Positions 53,780 through 61,773 of a DNA stretch of 64,000 nt are shown here, piece by piece. The position numbers were made by a program, and so were the translations under genes. The notes below the pieces were generated by a model that made no database searches, was not told the DNA's origin, and saw only the letters and a program-made list of their open reading frames with translations. Origin of the DNA: Lachnospiraceae bacterium (GTDB lineage Bacteria > Bacillota > Clostridia > Lachnospirales > Lachnospiraceae); the NCBI GenBank assembly GCA_017473115.1, contig JAFUNC010000014.1:113448-177447 (forward strand), given 5' to 3'. Every line of letters begins with the position of its first letter. The stretch's first letter is position 1.

Positions 53780-54418
53780 ATGTCGTCAGATTACTTACAT
53801 GAAATATTCATCTTTTTCCGCAATCAGCTGGCTACTGCTGCGGTTATCGGTCCTGTTATCTTTATCTTTTGGAAGTTAGAACACCATGAACGCAGACAGG
53901 CAAACCCTTCAGCCTATGCACTTCCGGAATCCTATCGTCAACAATTAACCGATACGAATCATTTGGAAGAACTGCCTGCATCTGTTCGTTTTTTTCATTG
54001 CGGTAAAACTTTTCTGTACGGTTTAATCATTTATTTTTTTATTATGATTTTGGGCACAATATCATTATCCTTACATAACCGGCTTAATTCCTTCTCGGAT
54101 TTATTAATATCATCATCACCGATTCTTGCCGTGATACTTTTTTTTACATTATTCAGTTGGTTTAAAGTCGGTCCCTGGTTTAAAATATACCGAACCACCG
54201 CTTACATCAGCAATCCAAGCGGTCTGGATCATTTGATGCGTTATGTGGTCTTTTATGACTATAAAAATCAGGAATACTCTACAGGAAGAATCCATATGTA
54301 TGAACTTTTACTTTCCGGTTTACATAAAGATTGTGAGGTAGTTGACATAATTGTATATGAAACGCCAAAGAAAATAAAAGTAGCAGGTGTATATCATCGT
54401 AATTTATATATAAAATAA
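53780..54418 (+). CDS. Unknown membrane protein downstream of tRNA-Leu
   Basis: A 212-residue protein with one helix near the N-terminus (about 18-33), two more at about 78-98 and 108-128, and a C-terminal soluble region of about 85 residues. No family recognised. AAAGGAGC lies 8 bases before the ATG, and a strong terminator follows. It is one of few plus-strand genes and may be read from the tRNA promoter. Confidence 0.7.
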   Translation: MSSDYLHEIFIFFRNQLATAAVIGPVIFIFWKLEHHERRQANPSAYALPESYRQQLTDTNHLEELPASVRFFHCGKTFLYGLIIYFFIMILGTISLSLHNRLNSFSDLLISSSPILAVILFFTLFSWFKVGPWFKIYRTTAYISNPSGLDHLMRYVVFYDYKNQEYSTGRIHMYELLLSGLHKDCEVVDIIVYETPKKIKVAGVYHRNLYIK

Positions 54419-54437: not shown

Positions 54438-54481
54438 AAAACGGCAACACAGAATTTTATTCTCTGCGTTGCCGTTTTTTA
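54438..54481 (+). terminator. Bidirectional intrinsic terminator
   Basis: AACGGCAACACAGA (54441-54454) pairs with TCTGCGTTGCCGTT (54464-54477) with one mismatch. T runs follow on the plus strand and A runs precede, so it can serve the plus-strand gene and the converging signalling operon. Confidence 0.85.
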
Positions 54482-54505: not shown

Positions 54506-55873
54506 TTATTTTGCCTTCAGTGGCTGAATATCAAAAGTCACTTTAACGTCCGATGCTTTTACGTTTTCATTCTGATTAAATTTCTCAAGCACACGTCCGG
54601 CTACCGCTTTTCCATTCTCTACATCCGTATCCATCAAAAGTACGATGTACTGGCTACAACTATACTTTGTACCGGTATCAACTGAGCGTAAAGACGTAAT
54701 TACTGCCTGTTTTAAAATCTCCATAATATCATCCATGGAAACATCCGTCCCTGACTCACCGGAACTCAAAGTAAACAAAAGTGTCTGGACATTACGATTG
54801 CTGCGTCCCACCGTACGCATGGCAAAGTCATATAATTTCTTAAATTCATCATATTCCACATGAAAGGCACCCTTATCCTTCTCCTGCTCTTCCGAAATCA
54901 TACGATGAATATCTTCCAATTCCGCATCCGTATCAATTGCCTCCAATACAACATCAGATACCGCTCCGTCTTTGCTCCAGAAATGATAAGAATTCTTTCC
55001 GTTTTCTTTGACGAAATACAGAGTGTCATCCGCATCACTGTATAAACTTTCAAATGTTTCGCCACTTTCTGCAATTTTAGCACCGATAGATACCGAAACA
55101 ATACCGGCATATCCCATAGCGCCCATTTTTTCGGCAAATGTTTTAATCACACCTGCTGCTTTCTCAGACGCTGCATTCCTATCCGTCACATCCGTAAAAA
55201 AGGCAACAAATTCATCACCACCCAATCGGCAAAGAATATCATCCTCCTTTGAATACAGTTTTAACGTGTCCGCAAAATTCTGTAGAACCGAATCGCCTAC
55301 CATATGTCCATAGGTATCATTCATGGACTTAAAATTATCAAGGTCCGTCATAAATAAGGTACCTCTGTGCCCGCCTTCCAATAATTTTTTTAATTCTTTT
55401 TCCAGATAAGCCCTGTTTTTCAGTCCGGTAAGCGCATCCGTATAAGATTTGATTGTTTCCTGATCCAACGCCTGTTCCAAATCTTTACGGACATCATGTG
55501 CCTCCAACACCCTTGCAACGCGGCTTTTCATAACATCTACCACGAAAGGCTTGGTAATAAAATCGTCCGCACCGCATTGCAGACAGTCTGCTTCCGTAAT
55601 CGGACTGGAATCCGCCGTTAAAAACACCACCGGAATCTTATTCCAGGCTTCACATGCCTTGATTTTTTTCACGACCGTCTTACCGTCCATTTCCGGCATT
55701 TCGATATCCATTAAAATCAAATCCGGTATTTCATTCTCCAAAAAATTCAATGCTGCCGCACCGGAATTTACCGTCTCAACACTATAGTCACCGGCAAGTG
55801 CATGTTTTGCCAATAAGCAATTGATACCATCATCATCTACTATCAGTACCTTTTTCATTCCTTCGTTCTCCAT
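54506..55873 (-). CDS. Response regulator with GGDEF domain (diguanylate cyclase)
   Basis: The 455-residue protein has a receiver domain (LIVDDDGINCL; LILMDIEMPEMDG with Asp 56; ITKPF) and a GGDEF domain with the intact active site LGGDEF (218-222) and the KNRAYLEKEL start, so it likely makes cyclic-di-GMP. The inhibitory I-site has Lys in place of the usual Arg (KEDD, 209-212). Residues about 310-455 look like a second, degenerate GGDEF-like fold without the motif. It abuts the HD-GYP gene (its ATG follows the TAA directly), so it is the last gene of the signalling operon. ATG 55858 is an alternative start. Confidence 0.93.
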   Translation of the reverse strand: MENEGMKKVLIVDDDGINCLLAKHALAGDYSVETVNSGAAALNFLENEIPDLILMDIEMPEMDGKTVVKKIKACEAWNKIPVVFLTADSSPITEADCLQCGADDFITKPFVVDVMKSRVARVLEAHDVRKDLEQALDQETIKSYTDALTGLKNRAYLEKELKKLLEGGHRGTLFMTDLDNFKSMNDTYGHMVGDSVLQNFADTLKLYSKEDDILCRLGGDEFVAFFTDVTDRNAASEKAAGVIKTFAEKMGAMGYAGIVSVSIGAKIAESGETFESLYSDADDTLYFVKENGKNSYHFWSKDGAVSDVVLEAIDTDAELEDIHRMISEEQEKDKGAFHVEYDEFKKLYDFAMRTVGRSNRNVQTLLFTLSSGESGTDVSMDDIMEILKQAVITSLRSVDTGTKYSCSQYIVLLMDTDVENGKAVAGRVLEKFNQNENVKASDVKVTFDIQPLKAK

Positions 55874-56953
55874 TTATTTTTCCCTAAAACTATACTCTGT
55901 ATCTTCCTCGATTATCTCTATCATAATTGCGGCAATCTCCGGATCAAACTGCGAACCGGCACATTTTTGAATTTCATTTCGAATCACTTCCTGGGGCAAT
56001 ACACCTCGATAACTTCTTGTGGAACTCATTGCATCATATGCATCTGCCACACCTATAATCCTTGCCACTAACGGAATGTCTTCTCCAGCCAGCCCGTCCG
56101 GATATCCTTTGCCGTCATATCGTTCATGGTGCCACCTCGCTCCAACCATAATATCCGGCAATTCCGACATTTTTTCCAAAATCTCCGAACCGATTACGGG
56201 ATGCGTTTTAATAATTGCATACTCTTCATCGGTAAGTTTTGATGTCTTATTGATAATCTCATCCGGAATGCCAATCTTTCCGATATCATGCAACAGACCA
56301 ATATAATAAATATTATCAATCTCTTCCGGTGCCATATTCATTTTAGCCGCAATCATTGCCGAATAATCTGCCACACGTACAGAATGTCCGTTTGTATATT
56401 TGTCTTTGGCATCGATGGTCCCCGCAAGTGTTTGCATTACCTGCACCGTCATTCGTTTTAACTGACGACTGCGCTTTTCCAGTTTCCTTGTTTTATATTC
56501 CACTTCATTCTGTAATGATTTTTGTAAATGTGACAACTCCAAGGTACGACTTGTACGCTGAAACATAATTTCATCAATAAAAGGCTTGGTAATAAAGTCA
56601 ACCGCCCCCAATTCGAAGCATTTTACTTCAGATTCCTGTTCATCATCCGCCGTCAAACAAATAATCGGTATTTCTTTTAAAATCGGTTTTTCTTTTATCA
56701 GTTTCATAAAAGTAAAACCATCCATCTCCGGCATACAAATGTCCAACAATATTAAATCTGTTTCGTTTTTCTCCAAATAGGAAAAAGCCTCTTTTCCGGA
56801 AGAAACCGTGTCTACCTCAAATTTGGCAGAAAGAATACGTTTCGCAACAAACAAATTCATGGCGTCATCATCTACCACCAAAATACGGCTTTTTCCGGTA
56901 TTCATATCATCTTCTTCTGCATTATGCAGCTTCGCCTTATTGCTCTGCTCCAT
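55874..56953 (-). CDS. Response regulator with HD-GYP domain (c-di-GMP phosphodiesterase)
   Basis: The 359-residue protein has an N-terminal receiver (LVVDDDAMNLFVAKRIL; LILLDICMPEMDG with Asp 71; ITKPF), a coiled coil (about 143-170) and an HD-GYP domain with LLHDIGKIGIPDEI (HD at 222-223) and WHHERYDGKGYPDGL (275-287), so the metal site and GYP motif are intact. It is expected to break down cyclic-di-GMP. It overlaps the hybrid kinase by one base (TAATG) and abuts the GGDEF gene. Confidence 0.95.
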   Translation of the reverse strand: MEQSNKAKLHNAEEDDMNTGKSRILVVDDDAMNLFVAKRILSAKFEVDTVSSGKEAFSYLEKNETDLILLDICMPEMDGFTFMKLIKEKPILKEIPIICLTADDEQESEVKCFELGAVDFITKPFIDEIMFQRTSRTLELSHLQKSLQNEVEYKTRKLEKRSRQLKRMTVQVMQTLAGTIDAKDKYTNGHSVRVADYSAMIAAKMNMAPEEIDNIYYIGLLHDIGKIGIPDEIINKTSKLTDEEYAIIKTHPVIGSEILEKMSELPDIMVGARWHHERYDGKGYPDGLAGEDIPLVARIIGVADAYDAMSSTRSYRGVLPQEVIRNEIQKCAGSQFDPEIAAIMIEIIEEDTEYSFREK

Positions 56954-59511
56954 TATACATCTACCCCTTCCTGCGTAAGATATGCCTTAACCGCTTCAAT
57001 TACATTTAAGTACAAACACATCGTTGTCTCATGATTTTTTAAAATATACGCTTTGCTTTCTTCCTCATCCGTATTCTCACGAAGTTTTTTTCCTGCTTTT
57101 TCCAATTGCAGGCATTCTTCTGCAAAAACTTCGCATCCCACGTTTAATGCATTTGTTTTTAACGAATGTATTACAACCGTGTAATCATTCCAATTTTCAC
57201 TTCCGTAATATCGCTCCAAATCAGCCTTTTTACTCTCATACTGGTCATAAAACATCTTAAGCACCTCAAGGTACATTTCCTTGATACCCGCGCAATACTT
57301 CATACCCATATCCGGATTCAAAAGACTGTTCTCTGTTTTTTCAACCATACATTCCGGTTCTTTGTTTTGAATCGAATCGACCATATTTTCAGAAGTTTTC
57401 TCCTCGTTTTCCGCTTCCATAAAATAGATTTTTTCTGCCGGAATATATTTTACCAGTTCATCTTCCAAAACCTTACCCACAATGGGTTTGCCCATATAAT
57501 TAGTGAAGCCTTCCCTCATATACATTTCTTTGGCACCCGAAATGGTATTGGCCGTTAATGCGATTACCGGCACATCCCGGTTTTTGTTCTCGGCAAGTTC
57601 TTTTGACTTTTTCAAAGTTTCAATACCATCCATACCGGACATCATATGATCCAGCAAAATTACATCATAGCGCTCTTGACACATCAATTCCAGCGCCTCA
57701 GCACCATTTGTACAGGTTGTAATCCGGATACAGGTTTTTTTCAAAAGATTTTTAACCACCTGCAGATTAATTTGATTATCATCCACTACCAAAACAGATG
57801 CCTCCGGTGCAGTATAACCGGTTTGATATTTCTGCAAACGGCCGGTAGACATACAATAGTTTTTTTTAAAATCACCGATTGTACCGGTACTACGGATGTT
57901 CTGCGTTAAAAATACCGTAAAAACAGAACCTTTTCCATACGTACTTTCCACCTCTATTTTACCGCCCATCATATGCACCAGATTATTACTGATTGCCAAG
58001 CCGAGGCCGGTACCTTCCACGTTTCGGTTTGCCTTCAAATCCAAACGCTGAAAATGTTCAAATAATCCTTCGATATCTTCTTTCCGGATGCCGATTCCCG
58101 TATCTTCCACCGACATCTTAAGCGTTACATTTTCCTTTGCAACATCAAATTCACCGTCTACGCTCAATGTTACAAGGCCTTTCGCCGTATATTTTACCGC
58201 ATTGTTCAATAGATTTAATAAAACCTGCTTCATACGGATATCATCACCATATAAAATATCAGGAAGTTCGCCATTTACACTTACATTAAACTGTAAGCCT
58301 TTTTGTTTTGCCTTCAATTCAATCATGGATACGACATCATACAATGATTCGCCCAACTTATACTCATTGTTAACAATTTCCATTTTTCCGGATTCAATTT
58401 TTGAGAAGTCCAGAATATCATTAATAATGGATAAAAGACTCTGACTGGCTATATCAATATTGCCTGCATATTCCAAAATTGTTTCATCATCACTCTCACG
58501 TAATATCATCTCATTCATACCGATTACTGCGTTAATCGGCGTACGGATTTCATGAGACATATTTGCAAGAAAGTCTGATTTTGCATGATTTGCCTGTTCT
58601 GCAACCAATTTAGCATGACGAAGTTCATCACTTTCTCTCGCCTTCTTTTCCGCACTTAACAGATAAATTGTTACAATAACCAAAAGTAACCATAATAAAC
58701 CAAAGCACCATAATACAAGAGGAATTAAAAGTGTAACATCGCCGGCCACAGCCTCCTTGGGCACACAACCGATAACATACAAACCACTGTATTCGGTTTC
58801 CGATGCAAAAAATACTTTGTCTTCCTGTCCGGTTTTACATACGGAAGCCGCGGAAACACTGATATTCATTTTAGAACGAATCTTCTCAAATGTTTGAATA
58901 TAACTTTCATTTGTGAAGAAATCTCCTTCCAAAGGTGTTTCTTCCATTTCCAGCAGAATTTTACCATCAATGTCAATCACCGCACATACACCGTTTCCGT
59001 CATAACATGAAATATCAATTTTTTCTGCCAAAACATCGCCTTCATACAATTTGTACAAGACATATTTCACATTATCTCCGCTGTATACGGGTACACTAAA
59101 TAATACGGTAGCATCTTTACCACAACTTACTGCCGCATTCCCGTGAATTGACTCAAAAATGCCGCTGTATTCCGAAATATCAAGTGTTTTTCCATAAGTT
59201 GCCGTGCCATCAATCTTCAGTACACCGTAGGAAACACCGGTTTCTTCACTCAGAAAATCTTCCATTTTACCGGTTTCCATATCAATAAAAAAAGTTACTT
59301 CACTTAACAAACGTAATTCTTCACTAAAACTGTTATTCACAACTTTTGCAATAGATTTACTCTGTTCCGCAACCTGGTGCTCTAATTGAACATCAATAAT
59401 ATCCTGCATCTTCCACCACATGGCGGCACAAACAATAATCAGAATAATAAAACTGACACTGACAACCCATATATTATTTTTAATCAACTTGAATTCAGGT
59501 TTATTCTTCAT
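56953..59511 (-). CDS. Hybrid histidine kinase with Cache-like sensor, receiver and HPt
   Basis: The 852-residue protein has two membrane helices (about 14-32 and 261-286) around a Cache-like extracytoplasmic domain, then HisKA with [17 protein letters not shown] (His 320), HATPase_c with [13 protein letters not shown] and [13 protein letters not shown], a receiver with [11 protein letters not shown] (Asp 621), and a C-terminal HPt domain with [13 protein letters not shown] (His 782). HPt gives a His-Asp-His-Asp relay, and two receiver proteins lie directly downstream. It overlaps the upstream BMP-like gene by 11 bases and the HD-GYP gene by one. Confidence 0.94.
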
Positions 59512-60601
59512 AAATTACTACTCCATCTACAAACCAATCCATTTTTTTCAGCAAGATATCATCGCTTATGGACTCACCCTCATTACATTGAAGCACTCCT
59601 TTATTATCATATATTACACCAGAAAAAATTTGATTACCTTCTGACATTTTATGCTTTGCCGTTTCAATCTGTTGCAAAATATCTTCGCCTACCAGCGGTG
59701 AACATTCTGACAATGCCACCACGCCTGTATCAAGACTGAACCAATGACGTTCTACGGAATTTCCTTTTCCCTGCAGGTATTCACGAATAATCTGATAATA
59801 TAAGGCATTCCAATCCCACACAGCCGCTGTCAGATACTTTTCGGATAACCCTTGTGCAACTGCATTATAACCGATTGAATATACTCCGGCCTCATCTGCT
59901 TTTTGTGCAACATAATGTTGATTTTGATGATAGGTCAAAACATCAGCACCAACTTCATTCATTAAAAGTTCTGCCGCTTCTGTTTCTTTTTCTTCATTTT
60001 CCCATTCATTGGTCCAAACTACATTGACGGTTGCATCCGGATTTACACTTTTTACGCCTAAAGTAAATGCATTAATTCCCCTGTTAACTTCGTTGTTAGG
60101 CATTGCTGCAACATAACCGATTACATTGTTTTCGGTTTTCATGCCGGCCACAATACCCGCCAAATATCTCGCCTGATACATTCTGCCAAAATATGATGTC
60201 ATATTATCAGCAGTATATTCTGCCGAAATACCGTAAAAAGAAACCTGAGGATACTGCTGAATTGTCTCTCGAACCTCCGTAGGATACGCATAACTGGATA
60301 AAATAATCATACTTACATCTTCTTTTACCAGTTCATCAATGGCACTCTTACATTGTCCGCTTCCTTCAGCAACATTCTCTTTTACAACCAGTTCAACGTC
60401 CAGTGTTTCACAGGCCAAACTGACACCCTGATAATGCATTCCGTTCCAGCCTTCATCTGTGGTTGCCCCGGTTAATATCAAACCAATTTTAACAGTGTCT
60501 TCCTTTTTCATATTAATTGTGAATATGGAAACAATAATCACAATCAGCAGCATCGCTGCCACAATAAGCAACAAATACTGTTTGTTTTTAATATTCTTCA
60601 T
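59501..60601 (-). CDS. Membrane-anchored BMP/PnrA-like binding protein, copy 2
   Basis: The 366-residue protein has an uncleaved-looking N-terminal helix (about 10-30) rather than a lipobox, then a BMP/Med-type ligand-binding domain: [54 protein letters not shown]. This fold binds nucleosides in PnrA and Med proteins. No ABC permease or ATPase is nearby, which argues for sensing rather than uptake. I choose ATG 60601 with AAGGGG upstream. It overlaps the first copy by 14 bases and the kinase by 11. Confidence 0.88.
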
Positions 60602-61685
60602 CACTTACAACCCCTTCAACATACCAGTTAAATTCATTTAACATGGCGTTATCAGTCATGCATTCTCCCTCTTCGACCCGAAGATTACCTTCGTTGTCGT
60701 AAATAGGGCCATAAAATACATCATAAGTACCGCTACTTATTTTTTCCATTTCCTGCTGTATAATTGCTTCCGTTTCTTTATCCACTTTATCCGTAAGCGG
60801 TGCTAGGAAAACCATACCGGTTTCAATTCCTTCCCAATAATGTTTACCTACAAATTTGCCTTGAAGACATTTTAAAATTACGGGTGTATAAAAAGCATCC
60901 CAGTCCCATACCGCTGCGGTCAAATATGTATTGGGATAATATTGGCTGTTATCTAAATTATATCCAATGGACATAATTCCTTCCTGTTCCGCTATTTCAA
61001 GTGCCATCAATGAATCCGTATGCATTGCAAGAACATCAATGTTATGCTGGTCAAGAAGTCTGTGCGTCGCGTCCGCAGTTGCTTCATCATCATTCCATGA
61101 ATTTATCCAACTGACATATACCGTAGCCTCACTGTTTACACTTCTGACGCCCAAAGTAAATGCATTAATGCCTCGATTTACTTCCGAAATCGGAAAGGCT
61201 GCAACATATCCGATTTCATTCGTTTCAGTCTGCAAACCTGCTACAATTCCGCTTATATATCGAATTTGATATATTCTGCCAAAATAAGTAGATAAGTTTT
61301 TGTCTTCTCCCACTCCTGTAGCGTGTAGAAAATAGATTTCCGGATATTCTTCTGCCGCTTCATTGATATACTCACCAAATTCAAAAGAATTGGCTATAAT
61401 CACCTTACAATCCGCTTCCGCAAATTCATCAATAATCTGCGGAATTTCTTCCGGAACAACATTTTCCTTATAAATAACCGACAAATTCAGTTCTTGTGCA
61501 GTTGCTTCCAATCCCTCATAATGAGACTGACTCCAACTGCGATCATCAATACTGCCGTTTAAAATCACTCCCACTTTCGTGGTTTCTTTTGTAACCTCTG
61601 TATCCGCTTCATATATGTTTATAACAAATATACCGACAATAATTGCCGCAATAATAATTCCTGCCACAATAAATATCTTTTTCAT
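60588..61685 (-). CDS. Membrane-anchored BMP/PnrA-like binding protein, copy 1
   Basis: A 365-residue protein with an N-terminal membrane helix (about 5-23) and a BMP/Med domain ([56 protein letters not shown]). It is a clear paralogue of the next gene; both lack a lipobox Cys after the helix. The start is ATG 61685; a GTG at 61694 is possible but too close to GGGAG. It is the first gene of the five-gene signalling operon and follows a good promoter. Confidence 0.88.
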   Translation of the reverse strand: MKKIFIVAGIIIAAIIVGIFVINIYEADTEVTKETTKVGVILNGSIDDRSWSQSHYEGLEATAQELNLSVIYKENVVPEEIPQIIDEFAEADCKVIIANSFEFGEYINEAAEEYPEIYFLHATGVGEDKNLSTYFGRIYQIRYISGIVAGLQTETNEIGYVAAFPISEVNRGINAFTLGVRSVNSEATVYVSWINSWNDDEATADATHRLLDQHNIDVLAMHTDSLMALEIAEQEGIMSIGYNLDNSQYYPNTYLTAAVWDWDAFYTPVILKCLQGKFVGKHYWEGIETGMVFLAPLTDKVDKETEAIIQQEMEKISSGTYDVFYGPIYDNEGNLRVEEGECMTDNAMLNEFNWYVEGVVSDEEY

Positions 61686-61744: not shown

Positions 61745-61773
61745 ATTTTAACACACTATAGGACTTGTGTAAA
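61745..61773 (-). promoter_or_regulatory. Promoter of the BMP-kinase-c-di-GMP operon
   Basis: TTTACA (61773-61768), 17 bases and TAAAAT (61750-61745) on the minus strand. The leader to the first gene is about 55 bases. No internal promoter is needed, as all five genes overlap or touch. Confidence 0.6.

Follow-up and report, generated by a model that had tools for sequence, protein, structure and literature searches.

Tandem BMP/PnrA-type binding proteins coupled to a hybrid sensor kinase in Lachnospiraceae: a probable three-component sensor with c-di-GMP output

Results and discussion

The five minus-strand genes that run from position 61685 down to 54506 of a 64,000-nucleotide stretch of DNA from a Lachnospiraceae bacterium (contig JAFUNC010000014.1 of assembly GCA_017473115.1, positions 113,448 to 177,447; the whole stretch is called the window below) encode, in order, two BMP/PnrA-type binding proteins (BMP1 and BMP2), a hybrid sensor kinase, a REC-HD-GYP protein and a REC-GGDEF protein. 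We consider it likely, with a probability of roughly three in four, that they specify a three-component, transporter-independent sensor of the XylFII-LytS or TorTS kind, in which BMP proteins, as a rule two for each kinase, are the binding components and which in this operon feeds cyclic diguanylate (c-di-GMP) signaling. The conserved unit is BMP1-BMP2-kinase (hereafter the module), not the five-gene set. The proposal draws on features that can be read from the sequences, namely the domains and motifs of the five proteins, the genetic coupling of BMP genes to the kinase, the lack of both a lipobox and an importer, the conservation of the binding pocket and the enrichment of c-di-GMP genes around the module.

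According to the mechanism that we favor, BMP1 and BMP2 would be held at the outer face of the membrane by their own transmembrane (TM) helices and would bind, in the cleft that serves AtzT and the Brucella protein 3s99, a small ligand, most probably purine nucleobases. They would act as co-receptors docked on the dCache-like domain of the kinase dimer, each dimer probably carrying one BMP1 and one BMP2, as the 2:2 complexes of known systems suggest by analogy. Ligand binding would change autophosphorylation at H320, and the phosphate would pass by way of D621 to H782 of the HPt domain and on to the receivers of both response regulators, so that an external signal would set c-di-GMP.

An earlier sequence-only reading of the window had named these five genes, and Pfam matches and motifs confirmed each of them. 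The kinase matches HisKA (9e-20), HATPase (2.2e-26) and REC (1.2e-21), the REC-HD-GYP protein matches REC (9.4e-28) and HD_5 (2.5e-35), and the REC-GGDEF protein matches REC (7.5e-25) and GGDEF (7e-41). A motif check found H320, D621 and H782 of the kinase, the receiver aspartates and the HD, GYP and GGDEF motifs all present. With ATG starts, the successive genes overlap by 14, 11 and 1 bases and the last two abut directly, exactly as had been noted. BMP1 and BMP2 are 41% identical.

Coupling of BMP genes to the sensor kinase

A search with BMP1 of 299 genomes from the family returned a BMP match in 182, and 51 regions were fetched in addition to the 1.5-kb loci. Together with 80 named loci, 40 fetched regions gave 115 scored loci, the window excluded, once five duplicates (L113, L117, L124, L126 and L128) had been removed before counting. 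The named loci are the best 80 out of 583 confirmed stretches that a collection of 84,980 species yielded, and they lean toward BMP1-like sequences. We called a locus kinase-linked if a sensor kinase of the same type lies on the same strand within 1.5 kb of the BMP gene. By this definition 81 of the 115 loci are kinase-linked, 22 carry a BMP-type ATP-binding cassette (ABC) importer and 12 carry neither partner, at least five of the last being cut by contig ends; not one of the 115 combines the kinase with a BMP-type importer. The ABC matches near three kinase-linked loci (L046, L098 and L099) are 23–29% identical and single-cassette or exporter-like, and were taken as unrelated. These counts agree with the earlier claim that the BMPs are dedicated sensor partners rather than importer parts; the opposite pattern, with homologs beside ABC genes and the kinase next to them by chance, was looked for and did not hold for this clade. 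In the family sample the module was present in at least 15 genomes besides the window's own.

Tandem BMP genes are found in 68 of the 81 kinase-linked loci, and in 52 of these pairs BMP2 can start 4–14 bases before the end of BMP1, a count that uses the possible start codon nearest the BMP1 stop and so favors short gaps. The sequence-only reading had suggested a genome search for the five-gene order with both BMP copies; the pairing of the BMPs recurs as just described, and the exact five-gene order was seen in a single kinase-linked locus of the 81 (L094), for which reason a conserved five-gene unit was rejected.

The coupling was also recovered when the search was started from the sensor domain. 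With a sensor-only profile, five matches below 1e-100 were obtained among 392 genomes of the order; the window's own is one of them, and all five are module loci. Sixteen weaker matches in the order (9e-22 or weaker), 13 of them GGDEF proteins, have no BMP match within 1.5 kb on either side. In 398 genomes of the phylum, 12 matches were obtained at E<=1e-25, namely the window's own plus 11 from five genomes of a single other family (f62), with up to four matches per genome; nine of these 11 were examined and all nine have a BMP gene directly upstream. Over the order and phylum searches, window included, an upstream BMP gene accompanies 14 of the 14 strong sensor matches examined. A binding-protein gene is consistently found beside a kinase with an extracellular sensor, both across the 81 loci and in the 9 of 9 sensor-first cases.

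Two of the f62 genomes, G661 and G900, have four and three sensor-kinase matches, respectively, per genome of about 3 Mb. All five loci examined in them (L185, L187, L190, L192 and L193) have an upstream BMP gene, and in L193 an HD-GYP gene lies directly upstream of the BMP gene.

Membrane anchors and permeases

The two sets of BMPs differ in their N-termini. The lipobox pattern is unmatched in 156 of 160 kinase-linked BMPs (duplicates kept), and in the other four the cysteine lies inside the hydrophobic helix; among importer-linked BMPs a lipobox is present in 30 of 31 (29 by pattern, one by eye). The median distance from anchor to core is 14 residues in kinase-linked BMPs (n=148) as against 30.5 in importer-linked ones (n=26). 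Neither BMP of the window has the lipobox that would go with the lipoprotein anchor of a BMP-type importer, and the operon contains no BMP-type importer gene; the sequence-only reading had likewise seen no transporter gene.

BPD_transp_2 is the family of both permeases in one BMP importer. No BPD_transp_2 permease was found in the window genome (2.23 Mb in 23 contigs, 85% complete), in which BMP1 and BMP2 are the only BMPs found, while 12 of 14 control genomes have such permeases. Two other module genomes that are 96–97% complete (G212 and G221) likewise have no BPD_transp_2 permease, and the module BMPs are their only BMPs; the remaining 13 of 15 module genomes carry between one and sixteen.

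A separate class of BMPs was seen in four genomes of the window's family (L066:1878-8331, L174, L175 and L176), where a TM-anchored BMP without a lipobox is encoded directly downstream of an HD-GYP protein. The HD-GYP protein of L066 has 1195 residues, with a Reg_prop propeller and Y_Y_Y domains. In the tree the L066 BMP groups with the importer-linked ones, and BMPs may thus have entered c-di-GMP signaling on two occasions. In four further loci (L053, L054, L055 and L056) proteins of about 650 residues have a C-terminal BMP domain behind some 300 residues and no N-terminal hydrophobic stretch; apparently these are cytoplasmic BMP fusions, and the two that were scanned (L053 and L055) gave no Pfam match besides BMP.

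The ligand pocket

The closest solved relatives of the BMPs are 3s99 (1.1e-72) and AtzT (6pi5; 7.5e-70), with the next best at 9e-38. The AtzT structure has guanine in its site and adenine was modeled in 3s99 (PMC6834077). AtzT contacts guanine through Tyr45, Ser97, Phe98 (backbone only), Glu165, Trp194, Asn218 and Asn220, and binds guanine and adenine with dissociation constants of 0.11 uM and 2.5 uM, respectively (PMC6834077). The side-chain contacts align with W51, S100, E168, W197, H222 and D224 of BMP1 and with W, S, E, W, H and N of BMP2. With proteins that are cut at the 3' end, short or over-long set aside, along with 18 identical cores, 148 kinase-linked BMPs were compared: position 51 is aromatic in all 148, S100 is kept in 147, E168 in 132 (Q in the other 16), W197 in 148, H222 in 145, and D or N at 224 in 147. 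Given that the purine-contact residues are kept, the purine-like signal proposed earlier is plausible, and the ligand of the BMPs is probably a purine. The genomic context of importer-linked BMPs was also tried as a clue to the ligand and set aside, as the 10 neighbors scanned were not decisive; the sole one with any bearing on nucleotide metabolism, a carbamoyltransferase, lies beside two Clostridium importers.

The position of AtzT Asn220 is D in 63 of 77 BMP1 proteins, as in the adenine-bound 3s99, and N in 47 of 71 BMP2 proteins, as in the guanine-bound AtzT, and one D is combined with one N in 49 of 66 tandem pairs. A complementarity of D and N between BMP1 and BMP2, to which the raw table lends a Fisher p of 0.013, was rejected, being unsupported by a tree-aware test on independent pairs, which found no correlated D/N change between the two. 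A bolder version of the proposal would have different purines on BMP1 and BMP2 of an asymmetric dimer that reads their ratio, or both, to set c-di-GMP, the whole being a mobile cassette that moved between phyla of the herbivore gut. We regard this two-channel sensor as speculative and rather doubt it; with no correlated change in the tree-aware test, it is left with lineage-wide differences as its basis.

The sensor domain of the kinase

The sequence-only reading had called the kinase sensor Cache-like, and this stands in part, by way of related sequences: the window sensor itself has no Pfam match and so does not reach the dCache_1 cut-off. dCache_1 is weakly matched by seven of 17 sensor homologs (best 0.0037), and of six sensors found by the window sensor profile three pass the cut-off (71, 61 and 50 bits against 45), one falls below it (31) and two have no match. 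An AlphaFold2 model of residues 1-300 (mean pLDDT, predicted local distance difference test, 82; pTM, predicted template modeling score, 0.71) shows two consecutive alpha/beta modules between two long helices, the topology expected of a double-Cache sensor. By transitivity through the intermediate sequences, together with the topology of the model, we take the sensor for a divergent dCache-like domain.

In a comparison of 41 of the 65 BMP-linked sensors with 15 related sensors that are not linked to a BMP, N147 was found in 40 of 41 as against 2 of 15, and G248 in all 41 as against 1 of 15. These residues and the other marks of BMP-linked sensors, Y150, Y153 and an acidic residue at 238, are candidates for a docking surface, which common ancestry alone could also explain. 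The purine motif of dCache domains uses a tryptophan (PMC11245519); across the 65 sensors no extracellular column has tryptophan in more than 15%, tryptophan being the one residue of the Y-R-W-F-D/N motif that the comparison covered. We infer that the Cache domain would listen to the BMPs and not to a small molecule.

Phosphorelay and c-di-GMP output

In Pfam the C-terminus of the window kinase matches Hpt at 0.013 (16.2 bits), below the 24.6-bit cut-off. A profile built from 17 homologous C-termini matches solved HPt domains (3myf at 7.6e-07, 7c1i, plant HPts and LuxU at 0.0095), and the histidine is kept in 16 of the 17; on these grounds the HPt domain around His 782, as first read, is taken to be real. 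An HPt-like histidine motif after residue 690 is present in 67 of 75 module kinases free of contig-end cuts. Among the eight kinases without it, one is a frame artifact (L159) and five are short (688–756 residues); the L095 kinase, which has no such motif, yet gave an HPt match in a separate scan.

A GGDEF or HD-GYP gene lies within 5 kb in 44 of 81 kinase-linked loci as against 1 of the 22 linked to importers (Fisher p 1.6e-5, to be taken as a guide only, the rows being interrelated and 17 importer controls out of 22 coming from hand-picked regions), and in 29 of 50 as against 1 of 15 when loci with full flanks are compared. The earlier claim of c-di-GMP control by opposing enzymes holds up as regards the enrichment of such genes, but not as regards the pair of enzymes, both types of which lie within 5 kb in 6 of 81 loci. 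Elsewhere there is a single enzyme, a receiver on its own, a hybrid HD-GYP protein or neighbors of unrelated kinds.

Within the window genome a receiver search gave 24 matches, query included, and the closest relatives of the HD-GYP receiver are that of the operon's REC-GGDEF protein (46%) and that of another REC-GGDEF protein on contig C23 (46%). This likeness fits one phosphate donor in common, without proving it. The C23 protein (G000:C23:136318-137166, a 456-residue frame) is a possible further target of the relay. In four loci from different families (L112, L120, L138 and L155) the module is followed by a response regulator of 260–269 residues with a C-terminal receiver, the N-terminal half of which has no Pfam match at 1e-4.

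Alternative explanations

Several observations weigh against the proposed sensor or against parts of it. Two BMPs are not required everywhere, since 13 of the 81 kinase-linked loci have a single one, and an HPt step is not universal in the module, to judge from the 8 of 75 kinases that have no HPt motif. The pocket cannot tell a sensor from a transporter, since importer-linked BMPs mostly keep the same residues; its conservation speaks, at the level of sequence, for the class of ligand and not for the role. Nothing points to an exclusive circuit, since the HD-GYP receiver is equally close to a REC-GGDEF protein elsewhere, and c-di-GMP is a frequent and not an obligatory output, since 37 of 81 loci, truncated ones among them, show no c-di-GMP gene in the 5 kb around them. 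The relatedness of the rows and the hand-picked controls lessen what the enrichment can say, and the branch joining the BMP1 and BMP2 groups in the tree has weak support. In one survey, nearly all Bmp-family proteins of the model bacteria studied were predicted to bind sugars (PMC9602780). Finally, the identity of the ligand, the docking, the stoichiometry, the direction of signaling and the arrival of phosphate at both enzymes are all steps that we infer.

The BMPs could instead be parts of an importer that uses a permease and ATPase encoded elsewhere, with the adjoining kinase regulating uptake. BMP proteins do normally feed ABC importers, 22 of the 115 related loci are importers, and 13 of the 15 other module genomes have BPD_transp_2 permeases somewhere. 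Against this stand the lack of such a permease in the incomplete window genome and in G212 and G221, the lack of a lipobox in kinase-linked BMPs and the absence of an adjoining BMP-type importer gene from all 81 module loci; for the kinase-linked clade we reject this explanation as very improbable. The module could also be a real sensor with a ligand other than a purine, such as a sugar, another nucleobase or nucleoside, a B6 vitamer or another heterocycle. The sole NCBIfam match of the BMPs is a B6-binding BMP family (53.7 and 61.8 against a 400-bit cut-off), the survey cited above points to sugars, H replaces Asn218 of AtzT while the Asn220 position varies between D and N, and triazines too are bound by AtzT (PMC6834077). 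The two top solved relatives, however, are both purine-bound and far ahead of the next, and the sandwiching aromatics and the serine are nearly invariant, so that we hold a different ligand to be a minority possibility, though one to be reckoned with.

It could further be that the module is a sensor and the neighboring c-di-GMP regulators obey other kinases, the true receiver of the kinase being encoded elsewhere. The order and presence of the regulators do vary among loci, many loci have neither enzyme nearby, and the genome offers many receivers. The 1-base overlap and the abutment in the window operon, the enrichment of c-di-GMP genes over importer-linked loci and the recurrence of REC-HD-GYP, REC-GGDEF or hybrid proteins up- or downstream of the module across families argue the other way, and we think this separation of kinase and regulators unlikely. 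We retain the BMP-based three-component sensor, with c-di-GMP as its output in this operon, as the preferred explanation.

Evolution and distribution of the module

In a tree of 104 BMPs the kinase-linked BMP2 proteins form one side of a branch with support 100, and the kinase-linked BMP1 proteins, with four contig-end copies, form another group with support 94. The change between kinase-linked and importer-linked states takes one step on the best tree, for which the root is unspecified and in which one importer row (L065) is very long. Distances in 62 loci (short rows L094, L109 and L145 left out) correlate at 0.85 between BMP1 and BMP2, 0.62 between BMP1 and sensor and 0.54 between the sensor and the kinase core of the same protein, a pattern that joint inheritance of the unit would lead one to expect.

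By label, the 65 named module loci that are not duplicates comprise Bacillota (51), Fibrobacterota (7), Spirochaetota (2), Synergistota (2), Pseudomonadota (1) and Chloroflexota (1), and one has no label. The Chloroflexota locus (L107, 'Thermoflexaceae') was rejected as evidence of a further phylum, as it nests inside Lachnospiraceae and is taken as a label error. Most named module loci come from metagenome-assembled genomes, but those of Selenomonas ruminantium ATCC 12561 (two copies, L138 and L151) and S137, and of Lachnospiraceae C10 and XBB2008, bear no such label. The copies of Selenomonas, Synergistaceae and Succinivibrionaceae group together in the tree, which suggests that the module may have passed between phyla, with contamination of single bins as the alternative. 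The herbivore rumen, caecum or rectum is named in many record titles. Even in the genus to which the window belongs the module has a patchy distribution, since one genome of that genus (G120, 100% complete) has no BMP match at 1e-20 and no sensor match at 1e-10.

Organization of the window locus

The features of the locus are collected in Table 1. The single promoter that the sequence-only reading placed before the operon is a consensus match only, in a region that has no excess of such matches (24 found against 25.9 expected from shuffles). A scan of the whole window at gathering thresholds found no riboswitch or other RNA in the leader, its one hit being a tRNA elsewhere. The likely terminator hairpin lies between the end of the operon and a convergent gene (53780-54418, plus strand), and is not among the hairpins listed by a program scan of the region. 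In the REC-GGDEF protein KEDD stands at what we take to be the place of the RxxD inhibitory site. Its C-terminal extension (54506-54976) is conserved among module-linked REC-GGDEF proteins and gives a faint GGDEF match (0.069); it is perhaps a degenerate second GGDEF domain.

Table 1. Features of the BMP-kinase locus, in window coordinates
Feature	Coordinates	Strand	Basis and remarks
BMP1, BMP/PnrA-type binding protein	60588..61685	-	Pfam Bmp ~8.8e-55, 186.3 bits against a cut-off of 24.1; predicted N-terminal TM anchor without lipobox, read from sequence
BMP2, second BMP/PnrA-type binding protein	59501..60601	-	Pfam Bmp 9.4e-53, 179.6 bits against a cut-off of 24.1; anchor of the same type as BMP1; overlaps BMP1 by 14 bases
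Hybrid sensor kinase	56953..59511	-	Two predicted TM helices flanking the divergent dCache-like sensor; sensor, HisKA (H320), HATPase, REC (D621), HPt (H782)
REC-HD-GYP response regulator, predicted c-di-GMP phosphodiesterase	55874..56953	-	Motifs HDIGK and HHERYDGKGYP
REC-GGDEF response regulator, predicted diguanylate cyclase	54506..55873	-	GGDEF motif; C-terminal extension of ~155 aa
Possible promoter	61745..61773	-	TTTACA-17-TAAAAT, TG before the second hexamer; 60 bases upstream of BMP1; consensus match
Likely terminator hairpin	54438..54479	-	AACGGCAAC ... GTTGCCGTTTTT; read from sequence

Relationship to known systems and implications

In LuxP-LuxQ (autoinducer-2, AI-2) and TorT-TorS (trimethylamine N-oxide, TMAO) a binding protein docks on a hybrid kinase, as the BMPs would here, and the best NCBIfam matches of the kinase include the models for TorS, LuxQ and BarA, none of which reaches its cut-off. 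LuxP and TorT come from binding-protein families other than BMP, with one kind per kinase, and the BMP module differs further in having c-di-GMP enzymes as its output. LuxP-LuxQ, TorT-TorS and XylFII-LytS are described as cases of a binding protein working through a kinase (PMC6321045). The three-component systems of Clostridia, XylFII-LytS and CuaD-CuaS-CuaR, resemble the module in that the binding protein is dedicated to the kinase; a 2:2 complex with the sensor domain has been solved for XylFII-LytS and modeled for CuaD (PMC10384115). These systems have sugar ligands and one binding protein, whereas the BMP module has two paralogs, and CuaD is a predicted lipoprotein and CuaR has a helix-turn-helix output (PMC10384115), in contrast to the TM-anchored BMPs. 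AtzT and Brucella 3s99, the closest solved relatives, have similar pocket residues, but AtzT is believed to take part in uptake, and the description consulted mentions no kinase link (PMC6834077). In the dCache_1PU receptors, too, purine sensing is coupled with c-di-GMP enzymes and kinases (PMC11245519). Their Cache domain is itself the purine-binding part, whereas in the BMP module the purine-type pocket is in separate BMPs and the Cache-like domain is without a conserved extracellular tryptophan.

Thirteen of 22 binding-protein families in one survey are known in signaling, with about ten characterized kinase cases (PMC9602780). No relevant paper on a BMP-kinase system was found among open-license PMC articles, which does not imply absence from print. 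The principle of binding protein and kinase is known; as far as could be found, what is new is the BMP family in this role, usually as two paralogs, TM-anchored, often with c-di-GMP output and in several phyla.

If the proposal is right, the BMP/PnrA family, whose members are commonly regarded as parts of importers, would join the binding proteins that drive sensor kinases, and a transporter name given from a BMP domain alone would mislead for such genes. It would provide a case in which two paralogous binding proteins serve one kinase, with a bearing on how two signals could be integrated by a single receptor dimer. It would also predict a purine input to c-di-GMP in bacteria of the rumen and hind-gut, including Selenomonas ruminantium ATCC 12561.

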